Position numbers and translations under genes: made by a program. 40,895 nt of DNA. Origin: Bacillota bacterium. Its GTDB lineage: Bacteria; Bacillota; Clostridia; Christensenellales; UBA1242. Below are positions 1 through 40,895 of the stretch, piece after piece. Location of the stretch: positions 1 through 40,895 of the forward strand of contig WRCD01000007.1 in NCBI GenBank assembly GCA_009784185.1. The letters run 5' to 3'. Numbering within the stretch: position 1 is the first letter of the stretch; the number at the start of each line of letters is the position of its first letter. The notes under the pieces were generated by a model. It was not told the DNA's origin and searched no databases. It saw nothing but the letters and a program-made list of their open reading frames with translations.

Positions 1-3000
1 GCATACAACTACGACGTTGAATACGAACTGGAGCAAACCGGCAGCACTTGGTTCTTAATAGTGTCCGCCTGCCCGGAGTTTTTCCAAACCGCCCAGTTTC
101 CAGTGACAGTTGACCCGACGATAACTGTGAAACAAGAGCATATGAATGTGGGCAGCCATCATGATGTGGGTACAACCGTGCGTACGAATTTCTATGTACA
201 TTATCCACTTTGGGGAATCGGCGGAGGCTGGTATTTTGCTTATGTGGATTTAGGTACGGAAAGAATTGTGAGCAAGGTCAGCAGATTGGATATTACTTCG
301 GCAAGTCTGTCCATAAATTTTGCTAATTCCGGCGCCAACTTTCTGGCAAGGCTGATGAACACCAAAAACTACAGTCAATTATATAACAATGCAAATTTCA
401 TACATAATCTAAGTTCAACCACCGACAACAATTCAAATCCCAGAAGACTCACCGTCAATGTTACAGATTACGTTAACAACCGACTTGATGCAGCTACCAT
501 ATCTATAAGGTGTCAAAACAACAAAGGCAACGATTTTTCAAGTGCGGTTCTAACAATAACCTATAATGAATTTGATAACCCTGACTACAACCTTACTCAG
601 GATTTGGGTGAGAGCGGCGCGGGCGCGGTAAATCTGAACACCGGGGCTTTAAGTTACACATACAACGACATTATAACAACGGACTGCAATATGCCCATTT
701 CAATCAACCGCATTTACAACGAGGATTTTGCAGACACCTACAAAGTGGGCTACGGCTTTAAGTTGAATATCCAGCAAAAGGTAGCACATGACGGTTCTAA
801 TTACTATTATTTAAGCGCCACCGGCAAGCGATACTATTTTGCTTTTTATAATCAAGTGAACACGAACAAGGAATTAGGCTTACGCTTGTATTTTTCCGGC
901 TCTACCGCGCTTATAATAGACCTGCATGGTAACTCCATGTTGTTTGATATGAGCAACAACGGAAACCTAAAGGAAATACATCAATATCCCTCAAAACCGG
1001 GTGCTGCGTTGGACGCACTAAGCATAGTCTTGACGTACAGTGGTAATAATATTTCTGAGATAACCAACAATTTTACAACGCTGCATTTCTCATATACTGG
1101 CGGATATCTTACTAAAATTGAGGACGGTTCTTTCACAACACTAGCGCAATACTGGTACACCGGCAACAAACTTGACATAGCACAAAAGTTTTTCACTTCC
1201 GTTGCATACGACACGACCCTAACTTACAACGGAAATAAAATATCCGGCATAACAAGCGCAACCGGAGACAAAGTACAATACACATATTCTGCTAACAAAA
1301 TAAGTTCAGTTGCAACATCCAACACAAACAATCTTACCGGTAGCCCTGTTATAACGAATATACAGTATACAACTTTTACAAGGGTGTTTTTGGGGCTGCT
1401 TGCTACAATGGCAATGGATAAAACAACTGTTGTAACCCAGGGTGATTTGATAAGACATATTTCGTTTAAGGGCAGTAAAATGATATCGGACTACACTTAT
1501 AAAAACGATGGTGGCAGTTTTATCCCATACAGCGCTTATTCCAACGAAGTTAATTTCATGGCATTTAATGAAGCGTACGGAACTGCTCAAAGTATTTATT
1601 ATCACGAATTTAATTCATCCACCGTTTATAACGGTTCGTTAATTCATCCGGTAACTTTTAATACTATTTGGGGAACGCACAGTTACGCAATGGGTGTATG
1701 GGTAAAAAAGATTGGCAGCGCAAAAGAAGATTTGCTTGTATCCACAAATGCCAACCTGTTTGGACTATACGACCGGGATGCAATAAACTCCAACATATTA
1801 GACTGGCAGTTTTATGTTTACATAATTGAAAATCCAGGATACCTTGCTTCTTTTAATGCAGCAATAGACTGCAACGCCGGTTTTTACATACGCTCCATTC
1901 AGCTTATACAACTGCCGCGGTTTACAAAAAGCCAAAAGGAAGAGTGGGCGCCTATCCGTAATGCCAACGGGCAGACAATTGCTAGCTTTCATTACGCTGC
2001 AGATAACTCTATTACTTCGTATCAATACACGTACGGCAACGCAAATGGAAACTATCTCGGGCAGCTAACTAGCATAACCGAGCGCACCGGAAGCGCAACG
2101 CTTACGAGAGCGCAATATCAAAGCCAAGCCACACAAGTAAGCAAGGTGGTTTACAGTTATACGCCTTACACTGTCAGCGGTAAAACCTATTCGTTTTTAA
2201 CAAGCACCACCACATACGGCAGTTCGTCTGCTTCCGGTGCGCCATACTTTACAACGGTTTACGGTTACGACAATGCAGGCCGTGTAACCTCATACACAGA
2301 CAAAAACGATGTGGTTACCGAATACAATTATGACCCGCTTACCGGTGCGATTACCGCAACTGTTTTGGAGGATGTGCTGTTAGGGACTGGCACCAGCACA
2401 ACAAACCAGTATCAGCAAGGCACGGGCTCGCTGCTGAGTACAACAACAGGCGGCATAACCACCAACTTTGGCTACAATAGCTGGGGCGGACTGGAAACTA
2501 TAAGCCAAAATGGTTTTACCACCTGTTTTAATTACAACTCAGAGGGCGGACTGCAAAGCATTAGCGTGGCAGGTCAGCAGCTTGTAAACTATACTTATTC
2601 GGATACTCAAAATATTATTGAATATTCCAACTGGTCCAACCTGGACCCGTTTGCAATGCAGAGCGTAAAATATAATTATGACGCAAACGGATACTTGACC
2701 AGCATGGAAAACGAAATGAACAATATAGCCAATTTCAATTATAGCAACAACCAATTGTCGTCTGTTTCACATGCAAACGGTGTTAATTATAACTATGCGT
2801 TTAATAGCCAAAATGCAGCTTCATCATATGAAATGACCAACGCCGGTAATACCTTCAGGGCGGAATACAGCAATTCCGGCAAAACTCAGAGTTATTTCCT
2901 GGGAGACCCCATGGGCGGCTACTCTCTTATGGATTATTACGAGCACACCTATAACAGCCGCGGGCAGATAACCGGCACTTACCGAAATGCAAATATGAAT

Positions 3001-4644
3001 ACGCAATATAATTACGACCCCATGAGCAGGCCGGACAGCAAAACGCTTACGCTTGGCGCAAACAGTTACAAAAACAGCTATGAATACTACGGCAACAACA
3101 ACAGAGTTTTTAGAGAGCAATATACAATAAACACGACCAAGCAGAGCGATTACATCTATTCATACTATGACAATGGTCTTTTGCAAACTGTTTATGACGG
3201 AAAGTATTACCCAAACAATTGGGTGTATCTGAATCATTACGAATACGATGCCTTTGGCAGGCTTGCCATAGAATACAACTTTACTGCCGGCAAAATATAC
3301 CAGTACATTTATGATAACGGCGGAAATATACTGGCAAAGCACCAGTACGACATTAACGGCAATTGGGAGACTATGTGGTCATACACTTACAGCGGTATTT
3401 GGAAAGACCAACTGCTGGCGTATAACGGCCAAGCCATAACATACGACGAAGTTGGCAACCCAACGTTGTATAAGGGCAATAACCTAACTTGGCAGAATGG
3501 CAGACAGCTTGCTACGTACGGCAGCAACATTAGTTATGAATACGACTATGCTAGTATACGAACAAGCAAAACAGTTAACGGCGTAACAACCAATTACTAT
3601 CTTGAAGGCAGCCGCATCTGGATGGAAACCACAAACGGCCAGATGAAATGGTATTACTATGACGCAGACGGAATCCAGGGAATGTGGAGCAGCGTGTACG
3701 GTGAATACTACTTTGAGCGCAATATGTTTGGTGACGTGGTAGCACTATGGACTACTAGCGGCGCACTAGCCGGCAGATACGTGTACGACGCATGGGGAAA
3801 TCACACTATTTACGATGCTGCAGGTAGCGTGATTAATCCATACACTCCGCACGCAATGACAGCAAACCCGTGGCGGTACAGAGGCTATTTTTATGACAGC
3901 GAAACCGGATTTTTTTATCTTAACAGCCGCTATTACGACCCACAGATTTGCCGGTTTATAAATGCAGATGAACCTGTGATGCTGTTTTTAACCGCGGGAA
4001 TGCCGGGCGGAGCAAACCTGTATGCTTACGCATTAAATAATCCTATAAAATTTGTTGACAGGACTGGAACAATGCCAGTTCCTGCTATTGGACCGGCATG
4101 GAGTGGTAGTGGAAGCGGAACTGGTTATGACAGAATTGTTAGACCAAACTTGAGCAATGATTTAATAAATATTATTTTCCATGGTGACCCAGGAATGATA
4201 CTTCTTAAACAATATGGAGGTGCAGTCGGGTCAATGTTAACATCGCCTTTTGCAACCGGTATGTATGCTTTAGGTTATATGCTTCAATCATTTACTTCGG
4301 TGAAAATGTTCACCTATAATTACTCTTTTTTAGAAGCAAGCGTAACGGGGTTTACAATAGCTGATGCGAATTTTACGGGGGCTGCATTAAGTCTTTATAC
4401 TAGTAACAATCACAATAACAACATATATTTAAATGCCGTAAACTTTTCAGTTTTTGCCGGTTTTGCAATAGATGGAATTGGCCTTTCGGCGCAAGGAACT
4501 ATATTAGAACTTGGCTATAGTAGCAGTAATTTTGATATAGGGATTTTGCTTGGCTCAATGGGTTGGAATTTAAAGCTCACACAAAATAGTTTAACTATTG
4601 GTGGGTCATATCTGGTAGGTTTGATATTTACAATTAGGTGGTAA
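1..4644 (+). CDS. Rhs/YD-repeat polymorphic toxin, 5'-truncated by window
   Basis: The frame is open back to base 1, so the N-terminus lies outside; the GTG at 61 is internal. The first ~180 residues include FPVTVDPT and a beta-rich stretch like the DNRLRE module often found in secreted Rhs proteins. A long YD-repeat region follows (YNYD, YTYN, YEYD). The Rhs core (about 3660-4065) contains RYYDPQICRFINADE and ends at NNPIKFVDRTG, the usual junction to the variable tip. The tip (about 4066-4641, ~190 residues) is hydrophobic and glycine-rich; I do not recognise it. By family knowledge this is a large surface or secreted shell carrying a C-terminal toxin. The hydrophobic tip and the membrane protein that starts 2 bases after the stop suggest a membrane-acting toxin (inference). 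Confidence 0.9.
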   Translation, partial: AYNYDVEYELEQTGSTWFLIVSACPEFFQTAQFPVTVDPTITVKQEHMNVGSHHDVGTTVRTNFYVHYPLWGIGGGWYFAYVDLGTERIVSKVSRLDITSASLSINFANSGANFLARLMNTKNYSQLYNNANFIHNLSSTTDNNSNPRRLTVNVTDYVNNRLDAATISIRCQNNKGNDFSSAVLTITYNEFDNPDYNLTQDLGESGAGAVNLNTGALSYTYNDIITTDCNMPISINRIYNEDFADTYKVGYGFKLNIQQKVAHDGSNYYYLSATGKRYYFAFYNQVNTNKELGLRLYFSGSTALIIDLHGNSMLFDMSNNGNLKEIHQYPSKPGAALDALSIVLTYSGNNISEITNNFTTLHFSYTGGYLTKIEDGSFTTLAQYWYTGNKLDIAQKFFTSVAYDTTLTYNGNKISGITSATGDKVQYTYSANKISSVATSNTNNLTGSPVITNIQYTTFTRVFLGLLATMAMDKTTVVTQGDLIRHISFKGSKMISDYTYKNDGGSFIPYSAYSNEVNFMAFNEAYGTAQSIYYHEFNSSTVYNGSLIHPVTFNTIWGTHSYAMGVWVKKIGSAKEDLLVSTNANLFGLYDRDAINSNILDWQFYVYIIENPGYLASFNAAIDCNAGFYIRSIQLIQLPRFTKSQKEEWAPIRNANGQTIASFHYAADNSITSYQYTYGNANGNYLGQLTSITERTGSATLTRAQYQSQATQVSKVVYSYTPYTVSGKTYSFLTSTTTYGSSSASGAPYFTTVYGYDNAGRVTSYTDKNDVVTEYNYDPLTGAITATVLEDVLLGTGTSTTNQYQQGTGSLLSTTTGGITTNFGYNSWGGLETISQNGFTTCFNYNSEGGLQSISVAGQQLVNYTYSDTQNIIEYSNWSNLDPFAMQSVKYNYDANGYLTSMENEMNNIANFNYSNNQLSSVSHANGVNYNYAFNSQNAASSYEMTNAGNTFRAEYSNSGKTQSYFLGDPMGGYSLMDYYEHTYNSRGQITGTYRNANMNTQYNYDPMSRPDSKTLTLGANSYKNSYEYYGNNNRVFREQYTINTTKQSDYIYSYYDNGLLQTVYDGKYYPNNWVYLNHYEYDAFGRLAIEYNFTAGKIYQYIYDNGGNILAKHQYDINGNWETMWSYTYSGIWKDQLLAYNGQAITYDEVGNPTLYKGNNLTWQNGRQLATYGSNISYEYDYASIRTSKTVNGVTTNYYLEGSRIWMETTNGQMKWYYYDADGIQGMWSSVYGEYYFERNMFGDVVALWTTSGALAGRYVYDAWGNHTIYDAAGSVINPYTPHAMTANPWRYRGYFYDSETGFFYLNSRYYDPQICRFINADEPVMLFLTAGMPGGANLYAYALNNPIKFVDRTGTMPVPAIGPAWSGSGSGTGYDRIVRPNLSNDLINIIFHGDPGMILLKQYGGAVGSMLTSPFATGMYALGYMLQSFTSVKMFTYNYSFLEASVTGFTIADANFTGAALSLYTSNNHNNNIYLNAVNFSVFAGFAIDGIGLSAQGTILELGYSSSNFDIGILLGSMGWNLKLTQNSLTIGGSYLVGLIFTIRW
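3772..3884 (+). repeat. Rhs core recombination block, copy 1
   Basis: This 113-bp stretch of the main rhs gene recurs at 5035-5147 with only a few substitutions. The last ~59 bp (AGCGTGATTAATCC to TACAGAGG) look identical. Similarity falls off sharply afterwards although the protein stays related. This fits recent duplication or gene conversion at the boundary where Rhs tips are exchanged. Confidence 0.85.
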
Positions 4645-4646
4645 AT

Positions 4647-5012
4647 ATGAGAGAGGATTTTATTAATTTAAAAAAGCAAATGTTTTTGGGGTGCATACCA
4701 GTAGTTGGTAGTTTTATAGTTGGCATAATTATGTTTATAAATATTGCTAGAATGTCAAAACTTGGCGACAAAATATTACTTGTTTTTGTAGGAATGCCAC
4801 TGGTCGGAGCGGGCTTTTGCGGTTTAGGGTTTTTATTCTTTACTCTAGTGTCGGAAGAGAATTTTTTATTAAACTACTCTCTGGGTTTGATAATCTTCTA
4901 CTATTTAGCTTTTGCTTTTATTGGGTGTCAATTTTTAATTTTCAAACTAATAACAAAAAGAAAAGAGCCAATTAAAAAAATTAAGGACGAGGATGAATCA
5001 AAATTTATTTAA
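4647..5012 (+). CDS. small 3-TM protein, candidate Rhs immunity
   Basis: This is a 121-residue protein with three predicted membrane segments (about residues 11-35, 42-68 and 77-102) and a lysine/acid-rich tail. The ATG at 4647 is chosen because AGGTGG (4636-4641) sits 5 bases upstream, overlapping the rhs stop (4642-4644); a GTG at 4638 is also in frame. The tight coupling to the rhs tip argues for a cognate immunity protein. No family is recognised. It overlaps the next rhs fragment by 20 bases. Confidence 0.75.
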   Translation: MREDFINLKKQMFLGCIPVVGSFIVGIIMFINIARMSKLGDKILLVFVGMPLVGAGFCGLGFLFFTLVSEENFLLNYSLGLIIFYYLAFAFIGCQFLIFKLITKRKEPIKKIKDEDESKFI

Positions 5013-5874
5013 AAAAGAGAGCAGCGTACTTATTGGCAGATATGTGTATGACGCATGGGGCAACCACACTATTTACGATGCTGCAGGCAGCGTGATTAAT
5101 CCATACACTCCGCACGCAATGACAGCAAACCCGTGGCGGTACAGAGGGTACTACTGGGATCAAGAAACAAATTTTTATTTTTTGCAGAGCAGATACTATG
5201 ACCCACAAATCGGGCGGTTCCTTAATGCGGATGAACCTGTGATGTTGTTTTTGACCGCAACAATGCCCGGCGGAGCAAACCTTTTTGCGTATTGTATGAA
5301 CAATCCGATTATGCTGACAGATAGCACCGGTTGCAGTCCGTTCTGGGACTTTTTAAAAGAATACATTGGCTGGGCTACTATGGCGTTAGTGGCCGTAGAG
5401 TGTGGGCTTAGTATAGCTACAGGATTTGTTTTACGAACACTACCAATACCTGGTATAAATGAGATAGGTAAAACCCTTGTTGGTGCAGGGGTTGGTGGAT
5501 TGTTCAGTATGGGAGGAAGTGTTTTTGAACAGTTAACCGATAAAGGTTACGTTAACCCGTGGCAGCTTGCTTTTAACGGCAAAATAGGATACTGGACAGG
5601 GTTTGCAGTATCTGCACCAATGGGGCCGATTTCTACAGGAATAGCTGTAGGAGCATTATCTGTTTTGCAAAGCGTTGGAAATGATTTGTTTAACAATAAT
5701 TTTGACGGCAGTAAAATAAACTGGGAAAGGGCAGTGTACATGGGTGTTGCTTGCGGCATGACAGCAGGAATTTTTAAGGCGTTTGCAGGTCGCCTCCCGG
5801 GATATGAAATAGCCTTCAGCGCAGCCGGCGGATTATACCGTGTTGGATTTAGTTGGCTTTTTAAGTATGCTTAA
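4993..5874 (+). CDS. orphan Rhs core + C-terminal tip (module 2)
   Basis: This 293-residue protein starts directly in the end of an Rhs core (GRYVYDAWGNHTIY at residue ~15), runs through RYYDPQIGRFLNADE and NNPIMLTDSTG (~residue 110), and carries a tip of ~180 residues rich in Gly/Ala and hydrophobic runs. The shell and any secretion signal are missing, as in orphan rhs-CT cassettes that serve as donors for tip switching. ATG 4993 follows an AGGACGAGG sequence, so it could also be translated alone. The tip is unrelated to that of module 1. Confidence 0.8.
   Translation: MNQNLFKKESSVLIGRYVYDAWGNHTIYDAAGSVINPYTPHAMTANPWRYRGYYWDQETNFYFLQSRYYDPQIGRFLNADEPVMLFLTATMPGGANLFAYCMNNPIMLTDSTGCSPFWDFLKEYIGWATMALVAVECGLSIATGFVLRTLPIPGINEIGKTLVGAGVGGLFSMGGSVFEQLTDKGYVNPWQLAFNGKIGYWTGFAVSAPMGPISTGIAVGALSVLQSVGNDLFNNNFDGSKINWERAVYMGVACGMTAGIFKAFAGRLPGYEIAFSAAGGLYRVGFSWLFKYA
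5035..5147 (+). repeat. Rhs core recombination block, copy 2
   Basis: Near-identical partner of 3772-3884, in direct orientation and 1263 bp away. Recombination between them would delete tip 1 and its immunity gene and join the main rhs gene in frame to tip 2. Both blocks encode GRYVYDAWGNHTIYDAAGSV. Confidence 0.85.
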
Positions 5875-5893
5875 CAACAATTAAGGAGGAGTT

Positions 5894-6343
5894 ATGGCGT
5901 TTAGGAAATTCGATTTGACAAAGGCGGAGTGCAAAAAACTTTTTATTATCTTTATAGTGATACTTGGTGCTGGTATGCTTATAACGGTAATAGGCGGCAT
6001 GCTTATGGGGGTGGCAAGTTTATTTTCGGCGCGTGCGATTATAGAAACAATAGCAATAATATTATTGTTGACAGGATTAGGAGTAATGGGTGTGCCGACT
6101 GTTTTTCTCTCAATAAAATATCCGGGGTTTTTTAAACCATACAACTCTACAGTAGAACAAATAGAGCGTCTTGAAAAACTATATGAAAGCCAAGACATAA
6201 CCGAAGCAGAATACACAAAACTTCGCACTGAGGTTGAGAAAACCGCACAGATAGAAAAGTTATACTTAAATAGTGAAATAACCAAACAGGAGTATGATAA
6301 GCTGCAAAATCAAGCCAACAAACAAGGCAAGGAGAAGGAATGA
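5894..6343 (+). CDS. 2-TM protein with doubled SHOCT-like tail
   Basis: A 149-residue protein with strong ribosome site AAGGAGGA (5883-5890) before ATG 5894. Two membrane segments (about residues 16-43 and 49-70) are followed by two SHOCT-like helices in tandem: IERLEKLYESQDITEAEY and IEKLYLNSEITKQEY. SHOCT modules are short oligomerisation or binding helices at protein ends. Its position just after an rhs tip makes it a candidate immunity or accessory protein (inference). It shares the membrane+SHOCT plan with genes at 12902 and 27589. Its stop overlaps the next start. Confidence 0.75.
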   Translation: MAFRKFDLTKAECKKLFIIFIVILGAGMLITVIGGMLMGVASLFSARAIIETIAIILLLTGLGVMGVPTVFLSIKYPGFFKPYNSTVEQIERLEKLYESQDITEAEYTKLRTEVEKTAQIEKLYLNSEITKQEYDKLQNQANKQGKEKE

Positions 6344-6891
6344 AAACCATATTTTACAGACATGGAATAGATAATGCGTATGTTTTTGCAATGATTCCAA
6401 TAATAATTGGCGTTATGTCAGCCGTCTTTTTCCGCAAGTTTATTTTGATTGAGTTTGTTGCAGTATTAATCATTCCCTTGACCATGTCGTTTTTACTCTT
6501 TGTAGTAGCCATGAAAAGGTCGTTATCCAAGATTTACATATCAGAACAAGGCTTAGAGCATAGGTTTTTTAAAAAACAACTGAAATTCATTGGTTGGGAT
6601 GAGATACAGCTTATTGGAAAGCACTCACAATACATAAGCATATTTGACAAGCGCAACCTAAAACTGATTTTAAAAAATAAAAACACCGGCAATTTAGAAA
6701 TGTTTTATTTTAACTGTAGCAATAAAATCAGAAAAACCTTAATTGAGCTATGTCCCGTGGAGGAGATTAAAACACAACTGGAGCAAATAGAGTTTAGGTT
6801 TTTAACAGACATATTTTACAAAAACAGAAAGAATGGTCAAAGGGACGGAGGTCATGGTCAGGGGGACGGGAGTAATGACACAAAAGCTTAA
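6340..6891 (+). CDS. 2-TM protein with PH-like soluble domain
   Basis: A 183-residue protein whose start overlaps the previous stop (ATGA), with AAGGAGAAGGA upstream, so the pair is translationally coupled. Two membrane helices (about residues 13-33 and 37-59) precede a beta-strand-rich domain (SKIYISEQGLEHRFFKKQ, WDEIQLI) of the type seen in bacterial PH-like membrane proteins. The C-terminal ~20 residues are Gly/Asp-rich (GQRDGGHGQGDG) and come from a degenerate 21-bp tandem repeat that overlaps the next gene. Second candidate immunity gene for tip 2 (inference). Confidence 0.7.
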   Translation: MKTIFYRHGIDNAYVFAMIPIIIGVMSAVFFRKFILIEFVAVLIIPLTMSFLLFVVAMKRSLSKIYISEQGLEHRFFKKQLKFIGWDEIQLIGKHSQYISIFDKRNLKLILKNKNTGNLEMFYFNCSNKIRKTLIELCPVEEIKTQLEQIEFRFLTDIFYKNRKNGQRDGGHGQGDGSNDTKA

Positions 6892-7837
6892 AACCAACAT
6901 TTTAATACCGTTTCTGGCCGTATTTTTGGCGCTCATCTGCCTGTTTGTTTTCAATGCGCAAGACTGGCAGCGGGTGTCTGCCGAGCAATACGAACGGACG
7001 GTTTCGGCAGAAAGCCAGGTTGATGAAAATGAAGATTATTTTGTGCTTATTTTCATGCTTGCAATATTCGTGAAATACGACGAATCCGGCATATCGGGTT
7101 TTAACATGGGTGGATGGGACTATATTTTCCAGAAAAATATTCTGGGAGACATCGTGTCTATCTGGCGCGCTGACGGAGCGTTTGGCGGCAGTTACCAATA
7201 CGATGCTTGGGGAAACACAACTATTCTGGCCGACCCGCTTGGGGTAGCCAACTGGAATCCGTTTAGATATAGAGGTTATTACCAAGACCAAGAGTCCGGG
7301 TTCTACTATCTAAATAGCAGGTATTATGACCCTGAAATTGGACGATTTATCAATGCGGACGACCCTGTAGTGCTTTTCCTGACCGCCGGTATGTGCGGGG
7401 GCGCGAATTTATATGCGTATTGCGGAAACAATCCGGTGATGAGAGTTGATTATAGTGGTTATAGTTGGCTATCTAATCTATTTAGCGGCATTTCTAGCCT
7501 CCTATCCAATGCGGCAGTAGCGCTAGAAAGTGTTATGGAAATGCTAGCCCCACATGTTTATGAAATAGAGTTTTCAGGAACAAGGGGCTGGCTTAGAGTG
7601 TTACACCACACTGTAGGGGTAGCATTAAGTGTGACAGTTATTGCCCGAGGCATAGTCTTAATGTTGGCGCCTGAACCGACTAGTTTAACGATAGGAGTAG
7701 GGTTTACGATGACTATGGGCGGTTTAGCAACCTTTGTTCTTAGTTTTGTCAACACAATTAACTCGCTCTACGGAATGGTAACGCGAGGTTCGTTTAAGGA
7801 GTTGTCTATATTTTATATTTTTGGTCTACCTAGATAA
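6875..7837 (+). CDS. mini-Rhs: signal peptide joined to Rhs core and tip (module 3)
   Basis: About 320 residues. It begins with a secretion signal (NILIPFLAVFLALICLFVF after basic residues), then ~45 residues, then enters the Rhs core at YDESGISG, with RYYDPEIGRFINADD and NNPVMRVDYSG. The tip is ~125 hydrophobic residues. The body of YD repeats is absent, so this is either an internal deletion of a full rhs gene or a compact secreted version. In-frame ATGs exist at 6833, 6854 and 6875, spaced by a 21-bp repeat; 6875 starts directly at the signal peptide and has AGGGGG nine bases upstream. It overlaps the previous gene by 17 bases. Confidence 0.75.
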   Translation: MTQKLKTNILIPFLAVFLALICLFVFNAQDWQRVSAEQYERTVSAESQVDENEDYFVLIFMLAIFVKYDESGISGFNMGGWDYIFQKNILGDIVSIWRADGAFGGSYQYDAWGNTTILADPLGVANWNPFRYRGYYQDQESGFYYLNSRYYDPEIGRFINADDPVVLFLTAGMCGGANLYAYCGNNPVMRVDYSGYSWLSNLFSGISSLLSNAAVALESVMEMLAPHVYEIEFSGTRGWLRVLHHTVGVALSVTVIARGIVLMLAPEPTSLTIGVGFTMTMGGLATFVLSFVNTINSLYGMVTRGSFKELSIFYIFGLPR

Positions 7838-7855
7838 TAGAAACAAGGAGAAACA

Positions 7856-8389
7856 ATGATGTTTGCTTTTTGGTTGGTATTAATAATAGTTTCGTTTTGC
7901 GCCATACTGTTTTTCGTATTTGAACTTCCTGGTGTAGTTTTTCAACGGAGAGTTCATTTTAAAAGAATAAAAGATATTGTCATTATTGTAGGTATTACTA
8001 TATCGATTGTTGTTTTCTACATGGCTTTAGCGTTTGCTTTTTCTTATGTAGAAGACACATTGCTGCGTTACCCGATTTGCGGTAGTATTTTGGCTTTTGG
8101 TGTAATCTACATATCAGGAACCATTTTGCCGCTTCAAAAAACAGATTATTCCAAAGTCAACATTGTTCGTCATATTTTAAAAGAACTTCTCCCGTACATG
8201 ATAATTTATGTGGCCGCCTTTTATATTTTACTGGAATTCGTTTTTATAAGTTTGATGATTCTCATAGTTGGCAGTATATTAATAACCATAAGAATATATT
8301 TTGTAACCAAAAGCTATCGCATTGCACAAGCAAATCAAAAAGCCGAACAGGCGCAAGAAGAGAGAATCAACAACAATCCTAATGATTGA
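7856..8389 (+). CDS. 4-TM protein, candidate immunity for module 3
   Basis: A 177-residue integral membrane protein with about four or five hydrophobic segments and a polar C-terminal tail (QKAEQAQEERINN). AAGGAG precedes ATG 7856 (an ATG at 7859 is also possible). It follows the third rhs tip by 18 bases and is closed by a terminator at 8411. Family not recognised; the immunity role is inferred from position and from the matching pattern at the other two modules. Confidence 0.7.
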   Translation: MMFAFWLVLIIVSFCAILFFVFELPGVVFQRRVHFKRIKDIVIIVGITISIVVFYMALAFAFSYVEDTLLRYPICGSILAFGVIYISGTILPLQKTDYSKVNIVRHILKELLPYMIIYVAAFYILLEFVFISLMILIVGSILITIRIYFVTKSYRIAQANQKAEQAQEERINNNPND

Positions 8390-8458: not shown

Positions 8459-8587
8459 ATGACAAACGCAAACCCAATCTTGCACGGGATTTCGATTATT
8501 TACTTTAACAAGCCGCATAAGAATATTACTCAAAATTACAACCCAAGAAAGAACAAGCAAAACGGCTGGTGGATAATACATTCATAA
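8459..8587 (+). CDS. 42-residue hypothetical peptide
   Basis: MTNANPILHGISIIYFNKPH... ends in WWIIHS. AAAAGGAG lies six bases before ATG 8459, and the ORF sits alone between two terminators. No promoter is evident, and read-through from the rhs array would be needed. It could be a small accessory of module 3, or the remnant end of a larger gene. The strong ribosome site is the main support. Confidence 0.4.
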   Translation: MTNANPILHGISIIYFNKPHKNITQNYNPRKNKQNGWWIIHS

Positions 8588-8591
8588 ACAC

Positions 8592-8622
8592 AAAAAGCCG
8601 TGCTGTTTAAGCACGGCTTTTT
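8592..8622. terminator. bidirectional terminator
   Basis: AAAAAGCCGTGC / GCACGGCTTTTT with an 8-base loop (12-bp stem). It can end the small ORF on the plus strand and the tRNA-Ser transcript on the minus strand. Confidence 0.85.
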
Positions 8623-8743
8623 ACTTACAAAAGTTTCCTAGCCCATCTCGTTTTTGCGTTAGATAGCGGGATTGCGTTTTTGGTTTTAATCCGGCGTAGT
8701 TTGCGACTATGCCCGGAACACCCTTGACGAAAACGTATAACAT
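8621..8743 (-). CDS. possible 40-residue peptide in tRNA-Ser trailer
   Basis: MLYVFVKGVPGIVANYAGLK... ends in GLGNFCK. GGAG lies four bases before the ATG. The equivalent frame in the second copy (from 40811) remains open to the window edge as MQYIFVRGVPGIVANYAGLK..., with three of seven substitutions synonymous plus V/I and K/R exchanges. That is suggestive of coding, but the sample is small and the same DNA folds well (see the repeat entry). Nothing is known of such a peptide to me. Confidence 0.3.
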   Translation of the reverse strand: MLYVFVKGVPGIVANYAGLKPKTQSRYLTQKRDGLGNFCK

Positions 8744-8774
8744 TTCGCTCCGGGTGTTCAAACTCTGTCGCCAT
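8659..8774 (-). repeat. tRNA-Ser-linked 116-bp module, copy 1
   Basis: It starts immediately after the CCA end of tRNA-Ser(CGA) and matches 40780-40895 without gaps, with 7 differences. Read on the minus strand it has three successive inverted repeats: GAACACCC/GGGTGTTC (with an inner CGAAATG/CATTTTCG-type stem), GGCATAGT/ACTACGCC (one mismatch) and GGATT/AATCC. In the inner stem a T-A pair in copy 2 becomes a T-G wobble in copy 1, so pairing is kept. Confidence 0.85.
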
Positions 8775-8862
8775 TGGCGGAAAGGGGCGGATTTGAACCG
8801 CCGGTTGCTTTCGCAACACCTGTTTTCGAGACAGGCACATTCGACCACTCTGACACCTTTCC
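8775..8862 (-). tRNA. tRNA-Ser(CGA)
   Basis: 88 nt with encoded CCA. The acceptor stem is GGAAAGG/CCTTTCC. The anticodon stem-loop CCTGT-CTCGAAA-ACAGG gives CGA. The long variable arm (GTTGCGAAAGCAAC) is typical of class II tRNA-Ser. Confidence 0.95.
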
Positions 8863-21244: not shown

Positions 21245-22423
21245 ATGATTGTTTCCAAGACATTAATAAAACAAAATAGAGACCTATTCAAAAACACCAG
21301 ATTCATTATAGTTCAGCACTTGCTCCCCGATACTCTGGATTTTTGCAATAGCTTGTTAGACAATGGTATTGAGATAAGTACTGTTTTTTCAAAACCGTAT
21401 TCTCATAGAGCGGCGAGCGAAAACGAATTAAGGAAAAGAAGCGTTGATATACGCTTGTTAAAACAAGATGAGAAACTTGATTATGAACGCTGTAAGAATG
21501 TATTAGATGCCGCCGAAGAAAAAAGCAAAGCAGACGGAAAGCAAATTTTAATTATGGATTTAGGCGGTCAGTATTCAAAAATAATAGCCGATGAAAAGTT
21601 TGAGCATTTAGCAGGAGTTGTTGAGGACACTGCTTTTGGACATAGGAGATATAAAGACAATCCGTCAAACAACCATGTTGTGTTTTCGGTAGCAGAAGGA
21701 GAAATGAAAGAAATGGAAGCAAATTATGTAGGCGCTTCCATTGTAGACTCTGCTGAACTTTTACTGAACAGAAACAATTCTACATTATATGACAAACAGA
21801 TTTTCCTTGTTGGGTACGGGATGATAGGGAAAAATGTTGCAAAACGATTAAAGATTAATACAGAAAGCTTTGTTGTTTATGACAATGATAAAGCCAAACT
21901 GTTGGCCGCAGAGTCTGATGGATTTAAAACTGCTGCACTGCAAGATATTTCTGATGCTGACGTGGTTATTGGTGTTACAGGAAATGCTTCCGTTTCAGCA
22001 AATTCTTTGCAGTACAAATTAAAAGACGGAGCGATGCTGATAAGCGGAAGTTCGAACAAGGTTGAATTTGATGTTGGCGGCTACGATACGCAAAAGGATT
22101 TTGGGAACATAAAGAAACTATCTAAAGATGGCAGAACAATCTTGCTTTTTAACGACGGCCAGCCGGTAAACTTTTTAACCAACAGTGTTCCCGATGAGAT
22201 TATTGATTTGGTGTTTGCCGAAATGTTTCAGGCAACAAAAGCTATGCTTTTGGAAAAAGAGCTTGAAACAGGCAATGTATTGAAGGTTGCAGACAACTAC
22301 ATTCATGAAATAAAAACAATGTTCTGCAATGAATTAATAAATCCAAACTATTCAGGTTTAGCAAAAAGATTAACTGACAAGGAGCTACCTAAAGATTTGT
22401 GTCTTAAGGGTCCCAGTCTCTAG
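21245..22423 (+). CDS. S-adenosylhomocysteine hydrolase-like Rossmann protein
   Basis: ~392 residues from ATG 21245 (AGGGAG three bases upstream; GTG 21233 also in frame). The centre has [17 protein letters not shown], the NAD-binding loop of the SAHH family, then [11 protein letters not shown] and [11 protein letters not shown]. The C-terminal half has [20 protein letters not shown], matching the SAHH 'LLAxGRxVN' strand. The N-terminal catalytic half is divergent, so it may act on another nucleoside or sugar derivative. It follows the Nudix fusion closely and probably forms an operon with it. Its stop overlaps the convergent gene's stop (CTAG). Confidence 0.65.
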
Positions 22424-23007
22424 TGCTGCCTGTATCTGTCTTCTTTATTTGTTTGCCGCTCTCTTGCAATGGCCAGGGCATAATCAGGTACGTCTTCGGT
22501 AACCGTGCTGCCGGCTGCCACAACCGCACTTTTGCCGATAGTTATTGGCGCAACCAGGTTTACGTTGCTGCCCACAAAAGCTCCGTTGCCAATTACGGTT
22601 TTGTGCTTTTGTTTACCGTCATAGTTAACGGTTACGGTTCCGCAGCCAAGATTAACGTTTTCTCCAATCTCGGAATCTCCCACATAAGTTAAATGCGCAA
22701 TTTTGGAGCCCGCTCCAATTACGCTTTTTTTAATTTCCACAAAGTTGCCTATGCGGCAGTTATCAGAAATAATGCTGCCCGGGCGCAAATGTGCGTAAGG
22801 CCCAATCCGGCAGCCGCTGCCAATTTCGGAGTCGGCTATATTATTGCCGGCTAATAAATGCACGTCCTGCCCGATTACAGTGCTGCCTTTAATAATATTA
22901 AACGGCTCAATTACAGTGCCATTGCCGATTTTAACGCTGTCATCTATAAAAACAACCTCGGGGTGCGGAATTATTACGCCCGCATCAATTAAGTGCCGAT
23001 ATTTCAT
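22420..23007 (-). CDS. stand-alone GlmU C-terminal acetyltransferase domain
   Basis: 195 residues, only the left-handed beta-helix half of GlmU, which acetylates glucosamine-1-phosphate. It starts just where the linker after the pyrophosphorylase domain would be ([12 protein letters not shown]). Residues equal to the E. coli Arg333 (LRPGS), Lys351 (VEIKK), His363 and Tyr366 (AHLTYVGD), Asn377 (GENVN) and Lys392 (NYDGKQK) are kept, so the domain should be active. The missing uridylyltransferase must come from another gene. I chose ATG 23007 since the longer frame crosses a terminator and repeat. Confidence 0.85.
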
Positions 23008-23031
23008 AGAGTAATATATGATAGCACAAAC

Positions 23032-23056
23032 AAAAAAGCCCTGACGGGCTTTTTTT
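23032..23056. terminator. hairpin terminator between divergent genes
   Basis: AAAAAAGCCC-TGAC-GGGCTTTTTTT. It lies upstream of both divergent genes, so it would act as an insulator, or as an attenuator for the glmU-like transcript. Confidence 0.65.
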
Positions 23057-23070
23057 GTCAACACAATCGT

Positions 23071-23099
23071 TTGACTTATATCTATTATAGGAATACAAT
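23071..23099 (+). promoter_or_regulatory. promoter of MFS gene
   Basis: TTGACT, 17 bp, TACAAT; ~92-base leader carrying a CATTGCGAG-family repeat. Confidence 0.7.
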
Positions 23100-23117
23100 T
23101 AGAGCATACAAGTTCTA

Positions 23118-23172
23118 TCCGGGGGATTGCTTCGCTTGAAGAGTCTCGGGCTGTCTCGCAACGACAGCACAG
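23118..23172 (-). repeat. CATTGCGAG-family dispersed repeat, copy 1
   Basis: The reverse complement reads TGTCGTTGCGAGACAGCC...CAAGCGAAGCAATCCCC. The same ends occur at 32933-32992 (TGTCATTGCGAG...GCGAAGCAATCCCC). This copy lies in the 5' leader of the MFS gene. Confidence 0.75.
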
Positions 23173-40689: not shown

Positions 40690-40779
40690 GGAGAAGTACC
40701 CAAGCTGGTCGAAGGGGCGTCCCTGCTAAGGACGTAGTGCTGAAAGGCAGCGAGAGTTCGAATCTCTCCTTCTCCGCCA
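40690..40779 (+). tRNA. tRNA-Ser(GCT)
   Basis: 90 nt with encoded CCA. Acceptor GGAGAAG/CTTCTCC; anticodon arm CGTCC-CTGCTAA-GGACG; long variable arm. Confidence 0.95.
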
Positions 40780-40895
40780 ATGGCGACAGAGTTTGAACAC
40801 CCGGAGCGAAATGCAATACATTTTCGTTAGGGGTGTTCCGGGCATAGTCGCAAACTACGCCGGATTAAAACCAAAAACGCAATCCCGTTACCTAA
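40780..40895 (+). repeat. tRNA-Ser-linked 116-bp module, copy 2 (cut by window end)
   Basis: It begins at the base after the CCA of tRNA-Ser(GCT) and is 94% identical to the reverse complement of 8659-8774. All three inverted repeats are kept. In copy 1 the transcript continues ~40 more bases to a terminator; here that part lies beyond the window. Confidence 0.85.

Follow-up and report, generated by a model that had tools for sequence, protein, structure and literature searches.

A conserved module behind the tRNA-Ser genes of a Clostridia genome as the probable attachment site of integrative elements of a large serine recombinase clade

Introduction

The window analysed here comprises the entire contig C7 (40,895 nt) of a Bacillota bacterium genome (G000; 1.16 Mb, 94% complete, 19 contigs) and raises the question why two different tRNA-Ser genes, those for CGA and GCT, are followed by 116 bases that are 94% identical and begin at the very first base 3′ of the CCA. 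A preliminary description of the locus had proposed a structured trailer RNA, a peptide gene carried on tRNA transcripts or an attachment-type mobile sequence. The comparisons reported below bear out the last of these: very probably, the module represents the attL (left attachment site) of integrative elements that a single clade of large serine recombinases (LSR) mobilises and whose attP lies inside the LSR gene itself.

Results

Module copies in the genome

The tRNA-Ser(CGA) gene was located by ARAGORN at positions 8775..8862 of the minus strand and the tRNA-Ser(GCT) gene at positions 40690..40779 of the plus strand. By its geometry (L108 for CGA, L038 for GCT), the 3′ end of each gene would represent the attB-derived half of an attL, which in the CGA gene includes the core CCGCCA (8780-8775, minus strand) and the T-loop GTTCAAAT (8798-8791, minus strand), the octamer of which ends 11 nt before the core centre (L108). 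The putative P′ arm of the CGA copy, ATGGCGACAGAGTTTGAACACC (8753..8774, minus strand), is an inverted repeat of the right arm found on contig C15 and probably serves as an LSR half-site. The second attL, consisting of P′ arm and severed tail (..MQYIFVRGVPGIVANYAGLKPKTQSRYL), covers positions 40780..40895 of the plus strand and is cut off by the contig end. The module length of 116 bp given in the preliminary description is thus an artefact of the contig end at position 40895; between the CGA and GGA copies the match extends to about 183 bases past the CCA and takes in the terminator.

Both of the originally described tRNA-Ser genes were confirmed as carriers of the module, and the total was found to be four. 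A third copy follows tRNA-Ser(GGA) on contig C2 (L002) and a fourth, limited to the first 25 nt, follows tRNA-Ser(TGA) on contig C1 (L004). Among the 42 tRNA genes detected in G000 by an Rfam tRNA search, the module stands behind all four tRNA-Ser genes (CGA, GGA, GCT and TGA) and behind none of the others. In the best explanation the four copies are one attL family that occupies all four tRNA-Ser genes at differing stages of decay. The CGA copy retains arm, tail and terminator, while the TGA copy is a 54-bp scar with the left arm fused to the right arm, the latter still coding for VQTQLPPARQ, residues that in these LSRs typically precede the core.

Distribution of the module in relatives

A 25-mer pattern of the module gave no match in 308 genomes of the same family and, because the sequences of the relatives diverge, a covariance model built from 19 modules was needed. 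With this model the module was found in 34 of the 396 genomes of the order and in 21 of its 143 genera, scattered over the families. In 34 of the 50 distinct copies examined, the first base of the module directly adjoins the CCA of a tRNA or tmRNA gene, the targets being tmRNA and tRNA-Ala, -Leu, -Ser, -Ile, -Pro and -Tyr. Some copies are located at CACCA sites that do not belong to a tRNA, several of which are the ends of other elements; three of the non-tRNA copies are weak (E 0.02-0.08 per genome) and are probably due to chance. The module thus always follows tRNA-Ser in G000, and elsewhere also tmRNA, other tRNAs and some non-tRNA sites, while random genomic placement, named beforehand as the outcome that would speak against the module, is the opposite of what was seen.

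A scan of GTDB contigs for the exact 18-mer CGACAGAGTTTGAACACC yielded 15 matches in Borkfalkia, Coproplasma, Gallimonas and other Clostridia, 12 of them exactly four bases past the CCA of tmRNA, tRNA-Ala or tRNA-Leu. No match to module-like DNA was obtained in phages and plasmids, and viral contigs gave one chance match (L057) and one contig with the module and a CRESS Rep fragment (L058). The sole DNA match in a relative (L036) was rejected, as it lies without a tRNA and resembles part of a protein gene. At five loci (L065, L075, L076, L116 and L126) the module has upstream of it a promoter-like sequence and, after this, GTGTGCGTNTTT...CCACCA; the same stretch terminates a second element with Rep and small ORF and is probably the end of another element serving as landing site.

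Complete elements and their serine recombinase

Four complete elements of 4.7-12.3 kb were identified in relatives, all in the order attL, LSR, attR. The largest (12.25 kb), located on a 399-kb contig of G508, starts with the tRNA-Ala end CTCCACCA and the module, followed by a CRESS-type Rep, a TAGTATTAC origin hairpin, further genes, an LSR of 516 aa, the right end ...GTGTTCAAACTCTAACACCCATACTCCACCA and the chromosome. Its LSR matches the Resolvase (6e-26), Recombinase (6e-16) and zinc ribbon (3e-12) domains. The other three measure 6.8 kb (G501, at tRNA-Ser, with thiamine-synthesis-like genes), 5.4 kb (G670, at tRNA-Ala) and 4.7 kb (G352, at a site that is not a tRNA). A short direct repeat, CCGCCA, TCCACCA or CTCCACCA, is present at both ends of the complete elements.

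A right arm was found behind 13 of the 16 LSRs that share 52% identity or more with the G508 LSR (P0002), compared with 1 of 14 control LSRs below 40% identity. The LSR encoded on contig C15 of G000 is 54% identical to that of G508 and has a matching arm with core CGCCA; the 3′ end of its gene carries GGTGTTCAAACTCTATCCCCACTTGCCCGCCA, i.e. the right arm with a tRNA-Ser-type core. This attR may be paired with one particular tRNA-Ser attL, a pairing that is inferred since the two stand on different contigs. Additionally, G000 encodes a second, distantly related LSR (33% identical) on contig C11 (positions 21736-23136; L156), which ends directly at tRNA-Arg(TCG), so that another LSR element also sits at the 3′ end of a tRNA gene.

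Arms and geometry of the attachment sites

The arm at the LSR end is an inverted repeat of the first ~22 nt of the module. In G000, 23 of 30 positions of the two arms agree outward from the centre, with a best stretch of 15/16, and at six sites 15-23 of 30 positions agree in register as inverted repeats (shuffle p 0-0.007), the symmetry being weaker at some sites (10-11/16). The predicted attP consists of the inverted arms GGTGTTCAAACTCT ... AGAGTTTGAACACC flanking a short core shared with attB. With distances counted from the core centre (CYC|CRCCA), the left-arm motif GTTTGAAC begins 16 bp from the centre, the right-arm sequence GTTCAAAC ends 16 bp before it, and in 34/34 tRNA and tmRNA copies 11 bp separate the centre from the end of the T-loop octamer GTTCRANY upstream of it.

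In LSR sites the zinc-ribbon motif is placed 5 bp nearer to the centre in attB than in attP (Rutherford et al., PMC3783163), and the spacings of 11 (T-loop) and 16 (arm motif) agree with this shift. The 11-bp spacing taken alone is weak proof, because tRNA anatomy fixes the position of the T-loop; the motif match to GTTCRANY at the predicted place is, unlike the spacing, not dictated by tRNA anatomy. It is consistent with an LSR that reads the T-loop of the tRNA in attB.

The conserved ORF as severed recombinase tail

The short ORF with GGAG before its ATG that had been noted in the module runs uninterrupted through all three long copies and is kept in distant relatives. In the CGA copy it belongs to a coding tail at positions 8621..8773 of the minus strand (..WRQSLNTRSEMLYVFVKGVPGIVANYAGLKPKTQSRYLTQKRDGLGNFCK*), which from its coding signal and its in-frame join to the C15 LSR appears to be the severed C-terminus of an LSR gene. 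In 44 of 45 copies a frame reads YIFVNGVAGF(V/I)A and then a stop codon. In 40 distinct segments of 36 nt the tail frame is free of stops, while the two other frames contain 25 and 3; pN/pS is 0.33 in the tail frame, where the variation falls mostly on third positions, and 1.0 and 1.8 in the others. The codon-substitution test proposed for further copies thus points to purifying selection on the module frame. In the GGA and GCT copies, an alternative frame of 49 aa beginning at the first base is broken by its codon 17, a TAG.

In all 13 LSRs that carry an arm, the LSR frame crosses the core without a stop; it passes into the module in the frame of the tail in 5/5 paired cases, the phases of LSR and tail being 0/0 in G508 and 1/1 in G501, G352, G670 and G000; the LSR gene of G670 is itself frameshifted further upstream. 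Joined at the CCA to the CGA or the GGA tail, the C15 LSR of G000 reaches 563 aa either way. Due to the fact that the LSR frame runs into the tail frame across the core, attP is placed inside the LSR gene and the module ORF is read as the tail left behind by integration. No circular form with intact LSR and tail was found in two scans of viral contigs. In streptococcal rumA ICEs (PMC4701971) integration likewise alters the C-terminus of the serine integrase, the gene of which contains one of the direct repeats; in contrast to the elements described here, their target is the protein gene rumA and not a tRNA.

Terminator, remnants and cargo

Sequence and fold indicate a Rho-independent terminator (AAAAAGCCGTGC..GCACGGCTTTTT) supplied by the element at positions 8590..8624 of the minus strand. 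A degenerate small ORF (MTNANPILHGISIIYFNKPHKNI..) at 8459..8587 of the plus strand is a frameshifted remnant (tblastn 42% over 36 aa, E 1e-5, with continuation in a second frame) related to the small ORF located 3′ of CRESS-type Rep genes in the elements of relatives. This remnant is the only such trace, as no Viral_Rep gene was detected in the G000 genome.

RHS/YD-repeat genes and genes of small proteins (RHS_repeat and DUF6531 matches) occupy positions 61..8389 of the plus strand, from the contig start to the module, and the GGA copy on C2 is flanked by similar genes at the corresponding place. They may be cargo of the elements; both stretches reach contig ends, and no far end of the elements was seen. 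Several truncated RHS tails and small membrane proteins were seen in window positions 1-8389 and in 1-6464 of L086, possibly polymorphic-toxin cargo. As judged by eye from translations, the cargo downstream of the module at L048, L051, L053 and L054 as well as at L044 and L192 is varied (AbiH-like, partial in some, metallophosphoesterase-type, DUF262-like and methylase-like genes) and looks like defence cargo. In the complete LSR element of G501 (contig C4; L190) at tRNA-Ser(GCT), a thiamine-synthesis-like cluster 740-4215 from the module contains, by eye, ThiE-, ThiD-, thiamine pyrophosphokinase- and TenA-like members.

Bacterial CRESS-type Rep genes with the canonical TAGTATTAC hairpin origin directly behind tRNA genes were observed in several families of the order, including that of the window (G170, G171), either at a contig end (L055) or about 1.2 kb from the module (L140-L147). 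Moreover, contig C2 of G008, from the family of the window, carries two identical tandem prophage-like copies of 8562 bp with a CRESS-type Rep (L073), which end at GTTTCGAATCCC (tRNA T-arm) and adjoin a tRNA 3′ fragment. They represent another att strategy in this family and, given their different att site, were kept separate from the module elements.

Discussion

Proposed mechanism

In the proposed mechanism the circular element would carry an attP built from the two inverted arms around a short CYCCRCCA-like core, and the LSR would recombine this core with a tRNA or tmRNA gene at its 3′ end, which is almost identical in sequence. In attB the T-loop GTTCRANY would probably take the part of the zinc-ribbon motif, 5 bp nearer to the centre than in attP. 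As the junctions suggest, the element would come to lie directly behind the CCA and leave the tRNA intact. Because attP would be situated within the 3′ end of the LSR gene, integration would provide the LSR with a new C-terminus from the host flank and strand the original tail, together with the terminator of the element, at the tRNA, where it would form the conserved ORF of the module. An extended proposal, for and against which the chances seem evenly balanced, is that the universal T-loop with the CCA end, in tRNA and tmRNA genes alike, serves this clade as a generic attB and that the integrase is self-regulated by amputation: each integration would take a conserved tail of ~25-50 residues off the enzyme and park its coding sequence behind the tRNA, so that integration would be self-limiting until excision rejoins the gene.

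Alternative explanations

A structured tRNA-trailer RNA, with the hairpin kept for processing, stability or termination of the tRNA transcript, would account for the imperfect three-stem hairpin at positions 8703..8770 of the minus strand, which folds as DNA better than its shuffles (z = -3.6) and has the terminator 3′ of it. The pairing-preserving change noted in the inverted repeats is borne out in so far as some compensatory changes exist, in a modest excess: five pairs are changed on both sides versus 1.8 expected, and covariation is 0.127 versus 0.085. The hairpin is thus real and somewhat covarying, but no separate function is assigned to it, since the recombinase half-site as well as the coding tail share sequence with its arms. 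In addition, an Rfam covariance search of the module returned no family and only tRNA above the gathering score, the TGA copy has lost the hairpin, and the module is scattered over few genomes of the order, occurs also at non-tRNA sites and is carried by an element with its own integrase, so that a trailer RNA is not needed and appears quite unlikely. Reading the hairpin as Xer/dif-like or integron attC-like was weighed by eye and given up once the LSR arms had been found. Improbable, too, is a stand-alone peptide gene on the tRNA transcript, starting at GGAG-ATG, encoding MLYVFVKGVPGIVANY... and selected in the integrated state. The purifying selection on the frame and the GGAG shortly 5′ of the ATG in the G000 copies speak for it; however, most relatives have no ATG at that place, the frame continues that of the LSR across the core, and selection on the tail in the circular form accounts for the coding signal. 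What stands of the peptide proposal is therefore the selected frame, which belongs to a severed integrase tail rather than to a free gene of the tRNA transcript.

Insertion by an HUH endonuclease (CRESS-type Rep), with the hairpin as transposition end, was the initial reading, as a full Rep (Viral_Rep 9e-19) and TAGTATTAC origin hairpins adjoin modules in relatives. It was dropped because the complete elements have LSR ends and some are without Rep, and it is now considered very unlikely: the origin lies well inside the element and not at its end, the true far end is 12.25 kb away and bears the LSR arm, and elements with the same ends lack a Rep in G501, G352 and G670, as does the whole G000 genome. 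Gene conversion or duplication of tRNA-Ser genes together with their flanks, without any mobile element, would explain why four related tRNA genes of one genome have the trailer in common, but the tRNA bodies differ strongly while the trailer is near-identical from its first base, and the range of tmRNA and non-serine tRNA targets in relatives already contradicts it; hardly any weight is left to this explanation. Attachment by an LSR thus remains the preferred reading of the module.

Comparison with known systems

The LSRs described here share the Resolvase, Recombinase and zinc-ribbon domains of large serine integrases of the A118/LI integrase, Bxb1 and phiC31 type, as well as a short attP core between inverted-repeat arms, in which the motif stands 5 bp further from the centre than in attB (PMC3783163). 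They differ from these integrases in that many tRNA and tmRNA genes serve as targets through their generic 3′ end, in which just one attB half is recognisable. Serine integrases at tRNA genes have been stated to be unknown (PMC4383910) or rare, the examples given being phiRSM and mycobacterial AICEs (PMC3218068; PMC4471427). The filamentous phiRSM phages of Ralstonia likewise combine a resolvase-type serine recombinase with the 3′ end of tRNA-Ser and a small phage-like element (PMC4471427; PMC3218068), a likeness judged from published descriptions; one tRNA target is reported for them, whereas the clade described here apparently uses many tRNA species and tmRNA and has its attP inside the recombinase gene. 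The AICEs of Mycobacterium also pair a serine recombinase with a tRNA target, tRNA-Leu (PMC3218068), but use this single tRNA gene and are conjugative elements of Actinobacteria.

The integrative pCRESS plasmids resemble the module elements in their CRESS-type Rep and in site-specific integration with direct repeats (PMC6668415). A nuclease-helicase Rep with a TAGTATTAC origin, by which pCRESS are recognised, is present in elements of relatives and absent from the G000 genome; Rep is just one of several cargo types behind attL. For the P-loop protein beside Rep, considered as a possible inovirus pI/Zot, only generic AAA model matches were obtained, and its structure model was unusable (pLDDT 36). 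What is new, as far as the sequences indicate, is that a single LSR clade inserts at many different tRNA genes and at tmRNA and has its own gene split in the process, although an earlier description in subscription literature or supplements is possible.

Significance

For annotation, the 'trailer' and its ORF are to be read as probable integration debris and not as a tRNA-linked RNA or peptide gene. If one LSR clade accepts tRNA and tmRNA genes of many kinds, this would explain a class of genomic islands missed by searches based on tyrosine integrases; for genome engineering it would provide an integrase that finds landing sites in most bacteria. Moreover, a built-in switch through the C-terminal tail of the recombinase would become a directly testable idea.
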